Origin: an uncultured Bacteroidales bacterium
GTDB lineage: Bacteria > Bacteroidota > Bacteroidia > Bacteroidales > Bacteroidaceae
DNA: 64,000 nucleotides
Assembly (NCBI GenBank): GCA_902799355.1
Contig: CADCAG010000025.1
Span: forward strand, 1 to 64,000
Direction: 5' to 3'
The notes below the pieces were generated by a model. The model was not told where the DNA came from and ran no database searches. It saw nothing but the letters and a program-made list of their open reading frames with translations. Below, piece after piece: positions 25,043 to 43,943 of this stretch. The translations under genes were made by a program, and so were the position numbers. How positions within the stretch are numbered: position 1 is the first letter of the stretch; every line of letters starts with the position of its first letter.

Positions 25043-26866
25043 CTATAAACTATAATAATAAGACTTGATAAGCTCTGTCATTTTTGCTCTGCGAGCTTCA
25101 AGGAAAGTCTGGTAACTAGTGTGGTCCATTTCCAAAATCTCAACTGGGATACAGTTATCTTCAAGATTCTTTAAAAATTCCGCCTCGCTCTTAATTTCTT
25201 TGTATGAATTATCTTGTGTACCCTTTATCGCATTAAGAGCTTCGTTCAGATACTCTTTGGGAGATTTTTTACCTATCTTTATATTAAGAGGAGTATCCAG
25301 ATATGCATAGTTGGCCACCTGATTATATTCGTGTTTGTCATATCCGTTATCTACCAGATATTGTTTAGGGAAAATATGGTGAATGTCGCCACCAAGGTTT
25401 ACTAGCTCTCCAACAGGAATGTGAGATAGCAAGGAATCTTTCTTGAAGAAGTTCTGTGCAGCAAGGAATACTTGATAGGTTGGATTGATAGAAGAAACGA
25501 AAGTTAGATTCTGATTAAGCTGAACATTCCAAAAAGCATCAGAAAGGTTGGCATCTTCAATAGCTCGTAACGTGGCCTTAACTCCGTTTTCTCCTATTGC
25601 ACGTATATCTTTCGCAAACGCAGATTCTGGAGATGCACTATAACGGCCTGTCAAAACAGAAAGAACATACCAACGCTGTACCAGACTCTTAATTTCATCA
25701 ACAGGTATTTCCTTTGATTCCTGAAGCAGCAGATAAACAGCATAGGCAAAATCGATGGCCATTACTGAGTTAACCAGTTTCTTCGATGTAAAACCAGCGC
25801 TACGGATAGCCAGCATAAATTGTGTAAAATTATATCCTTTGATGACATTGTTGATACCAGCTTCAAGTTCCTTATATGTGGATTCTACAATCTCCTCCTT
25901 GAATTCACGAGTTTCGAAATCACGACCTGACAGCATGGCCACCAAGTCTGCTAACTTCGCTCTCTTACAACGATGCATAAATGCCACACGTAACACATCG
26001 TCACATTCTGGATCATATACAGTTTCCTTGTCATCTTTTAGCCACTCCAGTTTGTTAAGATAACCAGAAGAAGCAAACACCTGATCTTTCTCTTTTATCT
26101 TATTATAGAAAGTACCATCTTTGCAGAGGTGGGCAAAGTAATCAACAACCTTACGTAGTGTATTGCCGCCATGAATCTCGTCTGCTGCAATCTTAGACAT
26201 TACGAAGTCACCTTGACTTAAAGCCGTTCCTTTGGAATTAATGCGTATGAATATGTCTGTAACAACATCAATATCCAAAGATGCATCCAACTCTATTACT
26301 CCGATATTGCAATGCTGAAGGTTCTTTAGGCTTTCCAGCACCTTATGCAATTCTTCTTGGTCCATTTCCGGATTGTCGACTACATATTGGTTGATGAACT
26401 TGAAACTGGAAAAGTCAGGTTTAAAAAGCTCTGCAATATCAGGAATCCATCTTTTTCCTTTTAGATGTGCTGGAGTCTGCACTGCAAACAACTCCGCATC
26501 AGGATTACCTGAAATAGCTGCAAATGGGTCAAAAGCAATTTTTACACGACCTTCGCTATAGTCATCAAATACAACAGTTTTACCAGCAATAGCTGTCATC
26601 AAAGCTGTGATGCGTTGCTGACCATCAATGAGGACTTTCTTGCCTTCTGAAAGAGATCCATTCTTTAGTTTTACGGAAGGATTCTTCCATATGATGATAT
26701 AACCCGTTGGGTATCCCTTATAAAGAGAATCCATTAAGTCGCGTACCTGCGACTTCCGCCATACAAACGGGCGCTGAATCTCAGGAATAGCTATATCGTT
26801 AGCCTCAATTAATCCAAGTATCTGACTTATAGCCAGAGGGTAATTGTTATATTTTTGCTTGTCCAT
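25043..26866 (-). CDS. DUF262/HNH (GmrSD-like) protein, likely defence nuclease
   Basis: A 607-aa protein. The N-terminal DUF262 domain has IPEIQRPFVWRKSQVRDLMD near residue 27, GYPTGYIIIW and the NTP-associated motif DGQQRITAL near residue 82. The C-terminal part has an HNH-type centre (GDIHHIFPKQYL near residue 494, with NQVANYAYLD and NIKIGKK after it) as in DUF1524-like nucleases. This architecture is that of GmrSD/BrxU-type modification-dependent nucleases that cut modified phage DNA. It lies 6 bp downstream of the restriction-modification gene on the same strand, suggesting one defence operon. Its DNA is clearly more AT-rich than the housekeeping genes, as expected for acquired DNA. Confidence 0.87.
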   Translation of the reverse strand: MDKQKYNNYPLAISQILGLIEANDIAIPEIQRPFVWRKSQVRDLMDSLYKGYPTGYIIIWKNPSVKLKNGSLSEGKKVLIDGQQRITALMTAIAGKTVVFDDYSEGRVKIAFDPFAAISGNPDAELFAVQTPAHLKGKRWIPDIAELFKPDFSSFKFINQYVVDNPEMDQEELHKVLESLKNLQHCNIGVIELDASLDIDVVTDIFIRINSKGTALSQGDFVMSKIAADEIHGGNTLRKVVDYFAHLCKDGTFYNKIKEKDQVFASSGYLNKLEWLKDDKETVYDPECDDVLRVAFMHRCKRAKLADLVAMLSGRDFETREFKEEIVESTYKELEAGINNVIKGYNFTQFMLAIRSAGFTSKKLVNSVMAIDFAYAVYLLLQESKEIPVDEIKSLVQRWYVLSVLTGRYSASPESAFAKDIRAIGENGVKATLRAIEDANLSDAFWNVQLNQNLTFVSSINPTYQVFLAAQNFFKKDSLLSHIPVGELVNLGGDIHHIFPKQYLVDNGYDKHEYNQVANYAYLDTPLNIKIGKKSPKEYLNEALNAIKGTQDNSYKEIKSEAEFLKNLEDNCIPVEILEMDHTSYQTFLEARRAKMTELIKSYYYSL

Positions 26867-26872
26867 TATTCT

Positions 26873-27121
26873 CTATTGTTGTTTCGTCATTATACCATCA
26901 ATTTCTTGCATAATACGCTCTGTCTGCTGGAGCACATAGATAATGTTGCCATAATGCTTCACGTCCTCAAAACTCAGGGTCATGCCCTTGCGATCTTTCA
27001 GCCATTTCTGCGCTGGCTGGTAGCCACCGATAAAGAAGCTCCAGGCTGATTCAGGCACACCGTCGAAATATTGCTCAGCGTTGATATATACGCGATTGTC
27101 CTGCCAGCGGTAGCAATCCAC
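26873..27121 (-). pseudogene. out-of-frame C-terminal fragment of the type IIG/ISP-like enzyme
   Basis: An 82-codon frame (DCYRWQDNRVYINAEQYFDG, then WSFFIGGYQPAQKWLKDRKG) has the conserved end of type IIG/ISP restriction-modification proteins. It is in a different frame from the main gene, which reads past LRQLHLMED into 14 unrelated residues and stops at 27075. The frame opens only with a GTG 46 bp inside the main gene, and a TGA lies just upstream of that, so it is more likely the cut-off tail than a separate gene. Relatives have about 20 more residues between LMED and VYIN, so a small deletion probably caused the shift. Confidence 0.75.
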
Positions 27122-29945
27122 AGTCTTCCATCAGATGCAACTGCCGTAGTTCTTCTCCCTTTTCTGCCAAATCGCGGAATTTCTCCCAGTCTGTTGGATA
27201 AGGAATGCGAGGGAAGTCTATCTTCAGGAATTCCTTGTAGCGTTCGCGATATGTTGGGCTATGCAGCACAGCATAGATGTAATCGAAGAGGTCTTGGGGA
27301 TAGAGCACACCATTATAATCGCTTATTGGGTCAACCAAGACGTTGTCATCATAGCTAGGAAGGTAGTTCAGGCCTTGGGCTATTTTGTCATACAATTCTT
27401 TGTTGAAGTTGACAATGCGCTCTTCTTTGCCCATGTTTTCTTTGTAAAGGTAAAGAGGAAATACGTTCCCTCCGCCTCTATAGAAAACATTCAAATCAAC
27501 GATACCTTTTGCAATGTATGTAAGATTCCATTTGTTGTTGCCACATACTTGACCTTGTCTTCCAACAAGAATAGCGAGATTGCCGTCGTGACGCATATGA
27601 GACATTAGTTTCTCACGAGTTCGCTCTACCAATTTGGCATCGTAATAAATATATCGAATATCAAAAGGTCGGTAGGCAATTTTATTTATACATGAATCTG
27701 CTATCTCTATATTGTAATAGTTTCTCACGTTTATGCAAAGAGAATTTCGTTCTTGGTTAATAAGAACTTTATCATTTGCTGTAAACACTCCAACATTAGT
27801 TGATGAGAATAAGTCTACAACACTAATACCTGCATTATACTTTTCTTCTAATCCAAAATCTTTCGGTACAAAGAAATACATTGGTGCTCTTGGTTGCATT
27901 TCATCATATCCAACATTTTCTAAAGTGGCGTTATCAAGGAAATCATATTTTTGCTGTCTGATTCCATATAAATCTTTATGGTACACCTTTCCAAGTTCTT
28001 CTTTGTCTTTCTTGCCAGTCTTGACAAACAGGTTAATGCTGACACCCTGCATAATATCAAAGACATTCTCGTCCTTGCTTCCATCTGGGCATGTCTCTTT
28101 CTTCTTCGAATTGCCATGAAGATCAATTGTGTAAATCTTATCGAAAGTCTTCAGCAGATTCCAACGCATACCTCTGAAAGTGGGATTATCAAGATATCCA
28201 TGAGGATTGATGAATCCTATGACGCCTTCTCCATTCTTCTCAATGTAATACTGAGCAAGACGGATAAATTTCACATAGTCATCATTCAACCATTTTGGAT
28301 TACGTTCATCCAAAGACAGCATTCCGCCAGGCTCTTTCTTATAGTCCTCCATCAGAGACATAATCCAATTTCCTTTATTTTGGCTGGCTCCACTATAGGG
28401 TGGATTACCAATCATCACCATTACAGGACAGTCACGCTTAATCACATTTGCTTCTGTTGCTTCACGGCTAAGCCACTGGGCAAAGAGGGTGCGAGGCTCG
28501 TTGTTGCTTTCTTCGAGAGAATTGGTCAGATAGACATGCAGACGTTTTTCAGACTGGTGTTGATAGCCTGTTTCGCTCAGCAACATGTCAAGTTTCAAAT
28601 GGGCTACGGCATACGAGGCCATCAATATCTCGAAGCCATTCAGACGAGGCAACAGGTGTTGTTCCACATACTGCTGCCAAATGCCCTGTTGGTCGCGATA
28701 GCGGTCATAAATCTGATTGACCACCTCTGCCAAGAATGTGCCAGTACCAGTAGCAGGGTCAAGAATCTGCACACGATGGAAGCGTTTCATAGCGTGCTTC
28801 ATGCCATCTTTGGTTCGTCCATCATAGCTCTGCTCAACGGCAACATCCTTTTCAATCGTGGAGTAGTCGGCCAATCCTTCTGGCAGGTTGAACTCCTTTT
28901 GCAGAATCTCGTCAACAGCCCTAACAATAAAGCCTACAACAGGTTGTGGAGTGTACCAGACACCTTTCGATTTACGCAGTTTAGGATTGTATTCAGACAG
29001 GAAGTCCTCATAGAAATGAATCATAGGGTCGTGGTGGCGCTTGTCTTCACCATAGGCCTTCATTATTTTCTGCAAGTCAGAAGCCAAGAATACCGTCACC
29101 AAATCATCCACTACCCATGCGATACGTTCATCAAGGTCGTTGCCTGCCAGATTGTTGAATATCTGACGCAGGAAGGGGTTGGTCTTAGGAATTAATCTTG
29201 CAGCCTCTTCACGGCTAAAGTCTTCTGGTGTATCGTCGTGCAAACGAGCTGCAAACAATCCGTAGGCAATAGTCTGGGCATAGATGTCTGCAAAGTCTGA
29301 AGGCTTCAGTTCCTGAATGAGTACATCCTTGAAAGCATTATACTGTCCTCGTAGATTATCATTGGCATAGCTCTCCGTATCATCGTTCATGGCCTGCTCG
29401 ATGATATTCTCCAAGAGACGAGCCTTGCCTGCCATCAGCTTGGCCAGACGCGATGCAGACGTAATGCGCTGAATAGCGTTATTGCCTACATGCTCTATGA
29501 GATTGAGAAACTTCTCTTCATTCTCTTGGATGGCCACAATCTTGTCACCCTTCACCTCTGCTATACGCACGCTATCTACAAACTCACCATGCTCGTAAAG
29601 GTGGAAGTCCAGATAGTCAGTGAAGATGATATAGTCGAGCGCTTGCTTATAGCGTGTAAACTGCTCTTTATGGCCATGAGGATTGCGTCCGTCAAGGTCG
29701 TTGTCGCCAATATCCTTTGCCTCTATGTAAAACACAGGCATACCATCCTTACGACTGGCAATATAATCAGGTGCACCGCACTTCACTCGCTTGGGCTCGT
29801 TCACAATGCGCAGTTTGGGCAACAGCGTTTGCACCAACTGCTCCAAAGCGCCTCTGTAGCTGTGCTCTGTGGCATTGCCATCACGGAATTTCTGATTAAC
29901 GGTGCTAATATATTCTTTTAGGTCCATATTGGGTAATGTAGTCAC
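27075..29945 (-). CDS. type IIG/ISP-like restriction-modification protein, 3' end frameshifted
   Basis: A 956-aa protein with an N-terminal PD-(D/E)xK nuclease-like domain (GAPDYIASRKDGMPVFYIEA, residues about 55-75). A helical region follows, then an adenine-specific DNA methyltransferase with motif I LDPATGTGTF near residue 397 and motif IV NPPYSG near residue 513, then a target-recognition region. Such single-chain enzymes both cut and methylate DNA. A second possible start, MDLKEY, lies 6 codons in (29927). The reading frame is lost after LRQLHLMED, and the conserved ending lies in another frame (26873-27121). Whether the truncated product works is unclear. It probably shares a transcript with the DUF262 gene. 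AT-rich compared with core genes. Confidence 0.85.
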   Translation of the reverse strand: MTTLPNMDLKEYISTVNQKFRDGNATEHSYRGALEQLVQTLLPKLRIVNEPKRVKCGAPDYIASRKDGMPVFYIEAKDIGDNDLDGRNPHGHKEQFTRYKQALDYIIFTDYLDFHLYEHGEFVDSVRIAEVKGDKIVAIQENEEKFLNLIEHVGNNAIQRITSASRLAKLMAGKARLLENIIEQAMNDDTESYANDNLRGQYNAFKDVLIQELKPSDFADIYAQTIAYGLFAARLHDDTPEDFSREEAARLIPKTNPFLRQIFNNLAGNDLDERIAWVVDDLVTVFLASDLQKIMKAYGEDKRHHDPMIHFYEDFLSEYNPKLRKSKGVWYTPQPVVGFIVRAVDEILQKEFNLPEGLADYSTIEKDVAVEQSYDGRTKDGMKHAMKRFHRVQILDPATGTGTFLAEVVNQIYDRYRDQQGIWQQYVEQHLLPRLNGFEILMASYAVAHLKLDMLLSETGYQHQSEKRLHVYLTNSLEESNNEPRTLFAQWLSREATEANVIKRDCPVMVMIGNPPYSGASQNKGNWIMSLMEDYKKEPGGMLSLDERNPKWLNDDYVKFIRLAQYYIEKNGEGVIGFINPHGYLDNPTFRGMRWNLLKTFDKIYTIDLHGNSKKKETCPDGSKDENVFDIMQGVSINLFVKTGKKDKEELGKVYHKDLYGIRQQKYDFLDNATLENVGYDEMQPRAPMYFFVPKDFGLEEKYNAGISVVDLFSSTNVGVFTANDKVLINQERNSLCINVRNYYNIEIADSCINKIAYRPFDIRYIYYDAKLVERTREKLMSHMRHDGNLAILVGRQGQVCGNNKWNLTYIAKGIVDLNVFYRGGGNVFPLYLYKENMGKEERIVNFNKELYDKIAQGLNYLPSYDDNVLVDPISDYNGVLYPQDLFDYIYAVLHSPTYRERYKEFLKIDFPRIPYPTDWEKFRDLAEKGEELRQLHLMEDCGLLPLAGQSRIYQR

Positions 29946-30068
29946 ATTTAAACGTTTATAGGCTACAAATTTACTAAATTATTCTTGAAAGTAATACGCT
30001 TTTGGACAAAAAACTTCAAAAAAAGGCTCGAAAATTTGGAGCTTTAAGTAATAATGTTCATCTTTGCA

Positions 30069-30278
30069 TCAGGAAAGGAAACGATTTCCTCCAATTGTAT
30101 GGGAATAAGCACTAACATAAGGAATCATGACAATAAGCCTCATTTGAATCAACAACTCCTTTAGAGCTATCTTTTCCAACAGCTTGCCCTTATCAAGAGC
30201 CTCTGCCAGAGAGCATTTCCCATCAGCATATTTGACGATAGTCTTGATGATTTCCTTTTCTGTCTTCTTGAATTTCAT
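30069..30278 (-). CDS. small hypothetical protein, possibly internally shortened
   Basis: From ATG 30278 the frame gives 69 aa starting MKFKKTEKEIIKTIVKYADG and ending IPYVSAYSHTIGGNRFLS. The first 40 residues look like the start of a Bacteroidales hypothetical family of about 130 aa. The segment RLIVMIPY...TIGG resembles a later part of that family. The middle appears to be missing, so this may be a deletion derivative rather than a complete gene. The family comparison is from memory and uncertain. It lies 15 bp downstream of the RhuM remnant on the same strand. No function is known. Confidence 0.45.
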   Translation of the reverse strand: MKFKKTEKEIIKTIVKYADGKCSLAEALDKGKLLEKIALKELLIQMRLIVMIPYVSAYSHTIGGNRFLS

Positions 30279-30292
30279 CACTCTATTCTACA

Positions 30293-30927
30293 TTAGCCTT
30301 TCTTTTGATTGTCGTTATTCTCCAACAGCGCCTTTACTGCTTTGTCGAAGTCGCTCTCAAGCATACGCATTTCGCGCTCACGGTAGATTTCAAACTCACG
30401 CTCTGCTTTCTCAATGGCTTCCTGATATAGATATCTGTTACCTGCTGGTAGAAGTTACGCTCACTGCTACGGATGTCGCGAATGCGTTGCAGCAACTCCT
30501 TGAAGTAGCGATTACCTCCTTGCTTCAGACGTTCATCGTCCATCGTGAAGCCCTTCTGGATATATTCATGCAATAAGCGAGTGGCCCAGCGACGGAAGCG
30601 CACGGCTATAGGCGACTGAACACGATAGCCGAGGGCAATAATGACATCGAGATTGTAGTGCAGTACCTCATGAGTCTGGGTTTTGCCCTCAATAGCACCA
30701 TGCTGAGTGGTATGTCGGAATTTCCGAACTACCACTTCTTTGTCTAGTTCCTTATCTTCAAAGATGTTTTTAAGATGCTCACTGATATTCGACTTGCTCG
30801 ACTGATAAATCTCTACCAGTTGGGCTTGTGTCAGCCATACATCTTCATCAGCAAACAGAGTATTTACGCTCAGTTTCCCTTCATCATCTTTATATAGTAT
30901 CAGTTTATTCTCTGATTTCTTTGCCAT
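30293..30927 (-). pseudogene. RhuM family protein, internally deleted and frameshifted
   Basis: From ATG 30927 the first about 165 residues match the RhuM family well: VWLTQAQLVEIYQSSKSNIS, HYNLDVIIALGYRVQSPIAV and RNFYQQVTDIY. After VTDIY the annotated frame becomes unrelated sequence. In another frame YQEAIEKAEREFEIYRERE and LESDFDKAVKALLENN run to a stop at 30293-30295. That looks like the genuine RhuM C-terminus, but about 100 or more residues between the two parts are absent. RhuM proteins are widespread accessory proteins whose role is not settled; they often lie near restriction or toxin genes, as here. The gene is probably inactive if the assembly is right. Confidence 0.8.
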
Positions 30928-31026
30928 ATTTTTGTTGTCTATTATTCTATCTGCAAAGATACGAAAAATTTTGGATTTTACCAAAAAAATTGACGAAATA
31001 ATGTTGGCTATTTGCGGATTTTTTTG

Positions 31027-31034
31027 TACCTTTG
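31027..31034 (+). promoter_or_regulatory. -7 box (TACCTTTG) before the structured leader
   Basis: TACCTTTG matches TAnnTTTG and ends 4 nt before the ATG of the first micro-ORF (31039). TTGG at 31004-31007 is a poor -33 candidate. This would start a leader of about 250 nt. Confidence 0.6.
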
Positions 31035-31038
31035 TATC

Positions 31039-31116
31039 ATGAAGCTGAGGCTCGGAAAAGACCGAGGAGTGCTTTATAAAGGACTATATAACTATAGTCC
31101 CTATCCCTATAGATAG
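31039..31116 (+). CDS. leader micro-ORF 1 (25 aa, Tyr-rich)
   Basis: ATG 31039 to TAG 31116 encodes 25 residues, starting MKLRLGKDRG and ending YNYSPYPYR, with five tyrosines in the last 13. The ATG sits at the expected transcript start. The second half of the frame is the DNA of two hairpins (31081-31120). Translation would melt these hairpins, so the frame could be a leader peptide; it could also be chance. Confidence 0.35.
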   Translation: MKLRLGKDRGVLYKGLYNYSPYPYR

Positions 31117-31239
31117 GGACATATATATATAGCTTAGATGAATAGGTCTATATACAAAGACCTATATCATCTAATGCAATAAGAATAAGTCCTATCGGAC
31201 TAGGCTATATGCGGGGGTGCCTAGGAGAGGGCACCCCGC
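31051..31239 (+). promoter_or_regulatory. structured leader with successive hairpins upstream of the 282-aa gene
   Basis: Stems in order: CTCGG/CCGAG (31051-31066); GGACTATA/TATAGTCC (31081-31100); GTCCCTAT/ATAGGGAC (31097-31120), which shares bases with the previous one and so competes with it; TAGATGAATAGGTC/GACCTATATCATCTA with one bulge (31135-31173); AGTCC/GGACT (31188-31201); and the GC-rich GCGGGGGTGCC/GGCACCCCGC (31211-31239). The region has no other long gene. I do not recognise a known riboswitch, T-box or leader family. Confidence 0.6.
31138..31182 (+). CDS. leader micro-ORF 2 (14 aa)
   Basis: ATG 31138 to TAA 31182 encodes MNRSIYKDLYHLMQ. YKDLY resembles YKGLY of micro-ORF 1. The frame covers the long hairpin at 31135-31173. 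Too short to judge alone. Confidence 0.25.
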   Translation: MNRSIYKDLYHLMQ

Positions 31240-31262
31240 AGGGCCAGAGAGTAAGAGGGTAA
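31209..31262 (+). CDS. leader micro-ORF 3 (17 aa)
   Basis: ATG 31209 to TAA 31262 encodes 17 residues (MRGCLGEGTPQGQRVRG) across the GC-rich hairpin, 32 bp before the start of the 282-aa gene. May be chance. Confidence 0.22.
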   Translation: MRGCLGEGTPQGQRVRG

Positions 31263-31294
31263 AAGCTAAAGAAAGAACAGAAAGAAATAGACGT

Positions 31295-32143
31295 ATGAAA
31301 CATGAGGACATTGTCCTGGCGGCGACAAGCGCCAGGAGCTACACTCGCCACTGGCGGGCTAAGAAACTATCGTGGAACGCTATTGGCAAAATCCGATACT
31401 TGATGGACGGGGCCATCGAGTATATGGATGAGGTTACGCTGTGCTATCCACAGTACAAATTCAACAAGCTACGCACGGCTCTGGGCTTCAAGCAGGATTC
31501 GGAGCTTACCGAACTCGTAGAACAGGCTGAGGTCTTTAGCATTGTACGTCATAAGGAGAGTGGAGAGATGATAGCCTTTATGACGCCACTTGTGCCCTAT
31601 CGGTTTGTCCTTACGCCAGACCAAGTCCTTGAGGAGCCAGCCATCAAGAGCGAGGTATTTGACGTCAAGGCCAACCTGGTGTATAATCCCAAGAACAGTG
31701 ACAAGATTGCGGATAACCTGCGGGTACACAAGAGGAGCATCAACATGAAGATGCTGCTGAAAGAAAACGCACCAGCGTTTCATGCAGAAGCCAAACGTGA
31801 TGCTGATTTACGCATCAATAGCCTATTCCTCAGATTATTAAGCCAAGAGCAACCCTTCAGGGAATATTTTGGAGAGTTCCTGTACCATTACCAGGAGAAA
31901 TACAAGAAGCAGGGTAACACGTCAGTTGCTGCCCTTCAGTCACTTGTCTTCGAACGCATGATACCCCACATGGCCAGTCGTGTGGGAATAGAGAACTGGC
32001 CAGAGGAGGCCATTCTGAAATGGATCAAGAACTATTTCGGTGCCCGTCGTCTGCCCTACGTGATTACCGAAGCCCGTGAGCTATGGCTCAAGGACCAGGA
32101 GAAGGAAAAAGATGCAAGGTTTTCCCCCACGGCGTCACGTTAA
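31295..32143 (+). CDS. hypothetical protein (282 aa), no recognised family
   Basis: From ATG 31295 the product is 282 aa. A longer frame from 31217 would run through the GC-rich hairpin and is less likely. The N-terminus is basic (ATSARSYTRHWRAKKLSWNA). The middle has alternating strands and helices (FSIVRHKESGEMIAFMTPLV) and the C-terminal half looks helical (YFGEFLYHYQEKYKKQGNTS, then ARELWLKDQEKEKD). No signal peptide, membrane helix or catalytic motif is visible. The basic start would fit nucleic-acid binding; this is a guess. It stands alone on the plus strand, between a defence-type region and a surface-protein gene, with a structured leader before it and a repeat cluster after it. Confidence 0.7.
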   Translation: MKHEDIVLAATSARSYTRHWRAKKLSWNAIGKIRYLMDGAIEYMDEVTLCYPQYKFNKLRTALGFKQDSELTELVEQAEVFSIVRHKESGEMIAFMTPLVPYRFVLTPDQVLEEPAIKSEVFDVKANLVYNPKNSDKIADNLRVHKRSINMKMLLKENAPAFHAEAKRDADLRINSLFLRLLSQEQPFREYFGEFLYHYQEKYKKQGNTSVAALQSLVFERMIPHMASRVGIENWPEEAILKWIKNYFGARRLPYVITEARELWLKDQEKEKDARFSPTASR

Positions 32144-32157
32144 ATAATGTGAATGCG

Positions 32158-32256
32158 GAAATACAGCTAATACAGACGCGGGAACAGCTAATACAGACGC
32201 GTATTAGCTGTATACGGGGTGTAAATACAGCTGTCTCGCGCTCGTATCAGCTGTAT
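32158..32256. repeat. cluster of direct and inverted ACAGCTAATAC units
   Basis: ACAGCTAATACAGACGCG occurs twice as an exact 18-bp direct repeat with a 21-bp period (32163-32180, 32184-32201). The second copy forms a hairpin with GTATTAGCTGT (32201-32211). A second hairpin, ATACAGCTG/CAGCTGTAT (32225-32256), uses the same core. It starts 15 bp after the stop codon of the 282-aa gene. Confidence 0.8.
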
Positions 32257-32308
32257 AACTCGGGGATGCTTGCTTTTATGATTCTTGTTTGGTGTAGCAT
32301 ATATTCTG

Positions 32309-37655: not shown

Positions 37656-37671
37656 TATTTTGTTACTTTTG

Positions 37672-37745
37672 TGATTCCGGCGGGATTCAAACCCACAACC
37701 TTCTGATCCGTAGTCAGATGCTCTATTCAGTTGAGCTACGGAACC
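37672..37745 (-). tRNA. tRNA-Arg (anticodon ACG)
   Basis: The 74-nt minus-strand sequence folds as a tRNA: acceptor GGTTCCG/CGGAATC, D arm with AGCTCAACTGAATAGAGC, anticodon stem TCTGA/TCAGA with loop CTACGGA (anticodon ACG), T arm GTGGG-TTTGAAT-CCCGC and discriminator A. CCA is not encoded. It has a full -33/-7 promoter upstream. Its 3' end is duplicated at 35635-35649 and partly at 37553-37567. Confidence 0.95.
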
Positions 37746-43577: not shown

Positions 43578-43943
43578 GAAAGCACTGCCCCTATAAGCCG
43601 GGTTCTGTACCTTTTGCAAGGTGTCTGCCATTTATCTACTCCGCAGGTTACCCTACGACTCAAGCATTCTACCCTCCATCGCAGCTTGCGCTTCGGACGG
43701 ACAGCCCTCAGACGATGGTATACGCGAACTTGCAGCCTCCAGATGGAACAGCCCGACGATCACCCGCCGGCTGGTGGTCTCTTACACCACCTTCTCACCC
43801 TTACCCCGTGGGGCGGTAATTTTCTTCTCCCATATCCAGCTGTCGCCAACTGCTGGCACTTTCACCAGTGGAGTGTCCTGTGCTGCCCGGACTTTCCTCT
43901 CGTGCTCCAATGAGCACCAGCGGCAGACCGAGGCACTGCTTTC
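43578..43943 (-). ncRNA. rnpB: RNase P RNA (bacterial type A)
   Basis: The minus strand has the diagnostic conserved core GAGGAAAGTCCGGGC near the 5' end (about 43888-43903) and ends ACAGAACCCGGCTTATAGGG, with the 5' and 3' termini pairing (GCAGTGCC region). The 3' end is followed by a T-run (43571-43577). As catalytic subunit of RNase P it removes the 5' leader from pre-tRNAs. End positions are estimated from the terminal helix, good to a few bases. Confidence 0.95.

Follow-up and report, generated by a model that had tools for sequence, protein, structure and literature searches.

The window analyzed here is a 64,000-nucleotide (nt) stretch of contig CADCAG010000025.1 from an uncultured Bacteroidales bacterium, whose genome (2.87 Mb) is 82.9% complete. 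It holds a gene for a protein of 282 amino acids (aa), preceded by a structured leader and followed by an array of short repeats. A preliminary description of this locus had listed a promoter-like box, two stems sharing bases 31097-31100, three micro-open reading frames (micro-ORFs) and the main ORF, all of which were found again at their positions. The features of the unit are as follows.

31027-31034, plus strand: TACCTTTG, a putative promoter of the Bacteroidetes-type -7 box kind
31042-31074 (core 31051-31066), plus strand: H0, the first hairpin, with an outer AAGC/GCTT stem; left boundary of the gene-less copies; in 27/27 loci
31081-31100, plus strand: H1, a stem with bases 31097-31100 common to H2; perfect 7-bp H1 in 19/27 leaders
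31097-31120, plus strand: H2, a stem with a conserved CTATAAATAG-like loop; 79/91 paired cells
31136-31172, plus strand: H3, a variable third hairpin, differing in length and sequence among loci
31210-31240, plus strand: H4, a G+C-rich hairpin 5' of the start codon
31295-32143, plus strand: gene for the 282-aa protein, likely DNA binding (predicted winged helix; model pLDDT 78.8)
32112-32261: dispersed repeat of about 145 bp that takes in the ORF end and the array and recurs in two further contigs of this genome
32161-32257: array repeating every 21 bp, made up of ACAGCTAATAC and variants of it that run in either direction

The protein family and its loci

Pfam and NCBIfam scans place the 282-aa protein in no named family, as the preliminary description had supposed. 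The family is present in 14 of 299 genomes of its own genus (full-length in 12) and is absent from a sample of 294 other genomes of the order. A sequence search of the PDB returned a single match (E 1.2), and a search of PHROGs a single weak one (E 0.046). Its structural model suggests that the protein probably binds DNA through the predicted winged helix, at the array or the leader region.

We compared 27 loci, i.e., the window and 26 relatives (L018-L043). Most of the relatives bear the title Prevotella or Prevotellaceae, and many come from rumen or fore-stomach samples, with the isolates HUN156 and MN60 among the carriers of the element (L018, L026); one each is titled Bacteroidaceae, Bacteroidales and Saccharibacteria (L028), the last title being probably a binning error. 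Neighboring genes sort the 27 gene-bearing loci into 18 groups.

A leader with base-sharing stems and its gene-less copies

The motif TAnnTTTG lies 23-26 nt 5' of H0 in 20 of the 27 loci, and we infer that the leader transcript starts from the box at 31027. The covariation proposed as a test in the preliminary description is present in H2, where 79 of 91 cells pair across 13 distinct sequences, a score matched by none of 5,000 shuffles (which ignore relatedness). In each of the 19 leaders with a perfect 7-bp H1, the 3' arm of this stem overlaps H2, by at least 3 bases in 17 of them. Nine H1 arm pairs were found (e.g., GGACTAT/ATAGTCC, GCCAATA/TATTGGC, GAGCTAT/ATAGCTC), two of which are overlapping registers of nearly one stem. 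Because the arm pairs differ across leaders, base sharing between H1 and H2 is kept under a changing sequence. RNAalifold run on the plain alignment recovered H0 and H2 and missed H1, which is out of register there. Hairpins like H4, of the form GGCGTGCC..GGCACGCC, are present at many loci, not all. An Rfam scan of the leader gave no family above its gathering score; Rfam microRNA models at 31113-31210 reached 24-25 bits against a gathering score of 100 and were taken as chance.

Leader-peptide control of the main gene, as the preliminary description had suggested, found no support because the micro-ORFs are not conserved. The leader of the window contains three ATG micro-ORFs of 25, 14 and 17 codons, the first two carrying YKGLY and YKDLY. 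An ATG ORF of at least 8 codons beginning 5' of the H2 loop was detected by script in 15 of the 27 leaders (16 with L037 added), and a peptide resembling the first one of the window (LYK..YSPYP) was confined to L019, L022 and L024, three leaders that occupy a single site. A leader-peptide attenuator was therefore rejected, as the conserved leader peptide that it requires is absent across the 27 leaders.

A covariance model built on H0-H2 and run over the 299 genomes identified 23 places in 15 genomes. Thirteen precede the gene, one precedes a gene without its middle (G081) and one a gene that breaks off after 22 codons (G265, contig C22); the other eight, in five genomes, are gene-less (G265 C45, C9 and C2; G083 C28; G055 C13; G142 C12 and C50; G173 C225). 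Ten of the 23 places were read out in sequence. Among the five copies of G265, the shared sequence spans some 230-250 bp upstream plus some 130-150 bp of leader. Copy C28 of G083 matches the C9 element of the same genome in pieces, the main ones at 91-100% identity, with the gene body missing, and in G055 C13 the leader is followed by a GTACTnnAGTAC array and no gene; both retain the leader and array of the gene-bearing copy of their genome, as a miniature inverted-repeat transposable element (MITE) retains parts of its parent. Two leaders of G142 adjoin a TTTGGAGCCTCCAAACGA-type array without a gene, and G173 has one leader and no gene. Seven gene-less copies lack the promoter stretch, and other sequence runs up to H0, where the copy begins. 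The occurrence of gene-less leader copies at other places in related genomes makes it likely that the unit is a small mobile element. The idea of a mobile or regulatory unit with flanking structures, also put forward in the preliminary description, is supported by leader and gene occurring together at 27 loci, by the gene-less leaders and by the 22-bp-period arrays, which lie beside the gene far above controls (see below).

Conservation of the exclusive stems and of the promoter spacing would equally be expected of an ordinary chromosomal regulator gene with a two-stem mRNA-leader switch. The nearby repeats would then be unrelated intergenic ones, which accords with 22-bp arrays being common in the genus, gene or no gene. 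Such a regulator is nevertheless unlikely in view of the gene-less leader copies, the neighborhoods that change between loci, the patchy presence of the family and the array excess at 15 of 23 loci.

Upstream of the leader, copies in G265 carry a long perfect hairpin whose loop reads CCCCCC in L148, L132 and L150 and GGGGGG in L144 and L151, as if flipped. A further 100-bp stretch is 93% identical between L144 (218-317) and L148 (977-1076) of this genome; its reading frame, read by eye, holds a leader-peptide-like ...DVAGG motif.

Arrays of period 21-22 and the DUF6078 gene

The repeat cluster reported 3' of the 282-aa gene is real and above chance, and begins 17 bp past the stop, at 32161. 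With at most one mismatch, ACAGCTAATAC occurs five times in the window, four of them in the cluster, compared with 0.94 expected; none of 100 shuffles reached five. Both repeat orientations are found in this cluster, and most arrays are direct. The two other-contig copies of the dispersed repeat are 87% identical over 150 columns and 90% over 143 columns, and roughly the last ten codons of the gene fall inside this repeat. Allowing one mismatch, the 13-mer ACAGCTAATACAG has 44 sites in its own genome (G000), grouped in 31 clusters, and 0-11 sites in each of 27 other genomes, in which a reversed control pattern is about as frequent.

For the comparison among loci, an array was scored when 16 of 20 bases were alike at a given lag, and the same-site loci L019, L022, L026 and L029 were dropped, leaving 23. 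A lag-22 array lies beside the 282-aa gene at 15 of these 23 non-redundant loci, the lag in the window being 21. Among 63 control genes in the same loci, lag 22 was found in 1 and lag 21 in 2; other lags gave 0 or 1. Array sequences differ between lineages while the period is kept. Conservation beside homologues, raised in the preliminary description, hence extends to the leader hairpins (26 other loci) and to the repeat period, and not to the ACAGCTAATAC sequence, which differs by lineage. Homologues devoid of both leader and repeats, envisaged there as well, did not occur among the loci compared, with H0 at all 27 loci and lag-22 arrays at 15 of 23. Palindromy over a set of 27 arrays averaged 4.67 of 6 pairs vs 3.97 in shuffles, the array of the window being low (3).

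Some repeats are closely tied to the element. Tandem GTACTnnAGTAC occurs in 2 of 28 genomes, solely at element copies, with six weaker partial copies elsewhere in G055. The exact GAATTTACGCAGAATTC sequence was present in 3 of the 28, each time no more than about 300 bp from a leader, with two further one-mismatch forms elsewhere in G258. Intergenic period-22 arrays of several unrelated sequences were also seen in genomes without the 282-aa gene and the second gene described next (L074-L090, in G016 and G010).

This second gene, DUF6078 (PF19555), accompanies 12 of the 27 loci. It directly follows the 282-aa family gene in 10 (L018, L019, L022, L023, L024, L026, L029, L030, L040 and L042); in L041 it is found 140 bp downstream and in L038 immediately upstream. 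A distant relative in G129 also adjoins a DUF6078 gene. A search for a DUF6078 remnant 3' of the window gene yielded nothing convincing (best E 0.18). PF19555 was searched in 12 genomes and gave 22 matches in 7 of them. L190, located where its contig ends, was left out, and most of the 21 genes that were inspected have no 282-aa family gene beside them. A lag-22 array lies within 300 bp of the DUF6078 gene in 14 of the 21, vs 17 of 260 genes in G179 and G138 and 7 of 239 in G016 and G010. Further periods turned up among the controls of G179 and G138 as well (lag 14 at 30 of the 260). The period at DUF6078 loci is 21-22, once 23 (L173). Their arrays are mostly distinct per locus, those of L183 and L192 and of L176 and L182 being similar, and L187 and L188 having one in common. 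In G003, GATACACACAGTCTC adjoins a DUF6078 gene and has 10 sites, with none in 27 other genomes. Within the linked clade, 9 of 11 DUF6078 genes are adjoined by the GTACTnnAGTAC core (5 of 7 counting same-site relatives once) vs 1 of 19 others, and one repeat core tracks one DUF6078 clade across several species.

Could the arrays be independent MITE-like minisatellites of the BrickBuilt type, beside which the element of the gene merely lands or by which it is hit? Arrays do occur without either gene, the array of the window is part of a dispersed repeat over the end of the gene, and BrickBuilt itself is described as a 23-nt tandem-repeat MITE of Porphyromonas gingivalis (PMC4596501). Array excess beside both genes, the tracking of a DUF6078 clade by its repeat core across several species and the confinement of tandem GTACTnnAGTAC to element copies in 2 of 28 genomes make this origin improbable.

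DUF6078 is not mentioned in the literature searched. A fold predicted for it from 11 sequences (pLDDT 66.3), for which Foldseek gave a best E of 4.9, was not used. In L172, L177 and L186, DUF6078 lies beside VapE-like AAA+ proteins, and these pairs perhaps represent a second class of such units.

A candidate repeat-spreading element and its known counterparts

The reading that we tentatively prefer, with a probability of about 45%, is that of a small element made of the leader with its two base-sharing stems, the 282-aa gene and the array of 21-22-bp period, which copies itself, gene-less derivatives and repeats around the chromosome with unrelated proteins, in the manner proposed for RAYT proteins and the REPINs that they would spread. 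The leader, transcribed from the box at 31027, would act both as the element's left end and as a switch for the gene. The 282-aa protein would bind DNA via its predicted winged helix, at the array or the leader region, DUF6078 would determine the repeat used, and the element would move by copying. The copy in the window may be worn, because no DUF6078 follows it and its array is a genome-dispersed family that supplies the last codons of the gene.

Several observations weigh against this proposal. The array of the window belongs to the dispersed repeat and, since that repeat covers the last codons, may have entered the end of the gene. A 22-bp array family of G055, one mismatch from the GAATTTACGCAGAATTC repeat of another element, has 27 dispersed sites away from its own element. 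Genomes G016 and G010 have neither a PF19555 match nor the 282-aa gene, yet 200 kb of the first and 139 kb of the second contain 6 and 3 lag-22 arrays (3.0 and 2.2 per 100 kb); for the gene-bearing G179 (200 kb) and G138 (174 kb), the counts are 9 and 7 (4.5 and 4.0 per 100 kb). No adjoining DUF6078 gene is found at 15 of the 27 loci, the window included. Searches of Pfam, NCBIfam, PDB and PHROGs found no catalytic domain of known kind in the 282-aa protein. No target-site duplications or terminal inverted repeats are visible by eye at the edges of the G265 and G083 copies, the 40 relatives of G055 offered one-sided flank matches and no empty site, and movement was not observed in the genome comparisons made.

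A broader proposal, which we regard as doubtful, is that Bacteroidales hold a second, independently evolved REPIN/RAYT-like world, in which each DUF6078 drives its own 22-bp-phased palindromic arrays, partnered by initiator-like proteins of which this winged-helix family would be one, with its base-switching leader as mobile left end and expression switch.

Directly upstream of the unit, the minus strand of the window carries defense-type genes (25043-30984), namely, those of a HEC-05-like protein (25043-26866), a type IIG restriction-methylation enzyme (27075-29945) and, within the same span, a RhuM-family protein, matched over no more than roughly the first half of its profiles. PADLOC returned no match as a defense gene for the 282-aa protein or DUF6078, and candidate phage, plasmid or viral origins of the unit gave no match either. 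Also on the minus strand are a tRNA-Arg gene (37671-37745) and the RNase P class A RNA (43578-43939).

Among known systems, riboswitches and protein-bound mRNA leaders resemble the leader in its conserved, covarying and mutually exclusive 5' stems; the leader differs from them in being kept in gene-less copies and in matching no Rfam family above gathering. Winged-helix plasmid replication initiators (4pt7, 4pql and 5kbj, presumably RepA_N-type staphylococcal proteins) resemble the 282-aa protein in the arrangement of its predicted N-terminal domain over 84-92 residues, and the array is iteron-like. The locus might be what is left of an iteron-type replicon in the chromosome, or a chromosomal relative of one, with an initiator-like winged-helix protein and the 21-22-bp array as its iterons, an origin that we rate as quite unlikely.

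Short repeats that are dispersed and have a gene dedicated to them are known chiefly from REPIN-RAYT systems. In these (PMC3116915), a single-copy gene is adjoined by short palindromic repeats of its own, which are spread over the genome in question and differ from gene to gene. The likeness lies in a gene beside its own repeat family, dispersed in its own genome (as in G000 and G003), and in a different family per gene (at most DUF6078 loci). The unit differs in its phased 21-22-bp arrays, REPINs being inverted pairs (PMC3116915), and in the conserved base-sharing leader that belongs to it. As Pfam scans of the 282-aa and DUF6078 proteins revealed no RAYT-type (Y1/HUH) domain, it is not a member of REPIN-RAYT.

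Within the order, the nearest described repeat found is BrickBuilt, a MITE of P. gingivalis (PMC4596501). It is intergenic and dispersed, consists of 23-nt tandem repeats flanked by leader and tail parts, has IS5-like terminal inverted repeats and carries no gene. By that description, the likeness is in the intergenic location, the dispersal and a nearly equal length of the tandem unit; the arrays studied here differ in adjoining DUF6078 and the 282-aa family and in their many sequences. Titles and abstracts of the literature searched on Prevotella repeats, PMC5771137 included, report none of these arrays.

If our preferred reading holds, the unit would be an unrelated counterpart of REPIN-RAYT, implying that this arrangement arose more than once, and would add to it a conserved base-sharing leader kept even where the gene is gone. 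It would also assign DUF6078 a first testable role and BrickBuilt-type minisatellites of 22-23 nt a possible parent.
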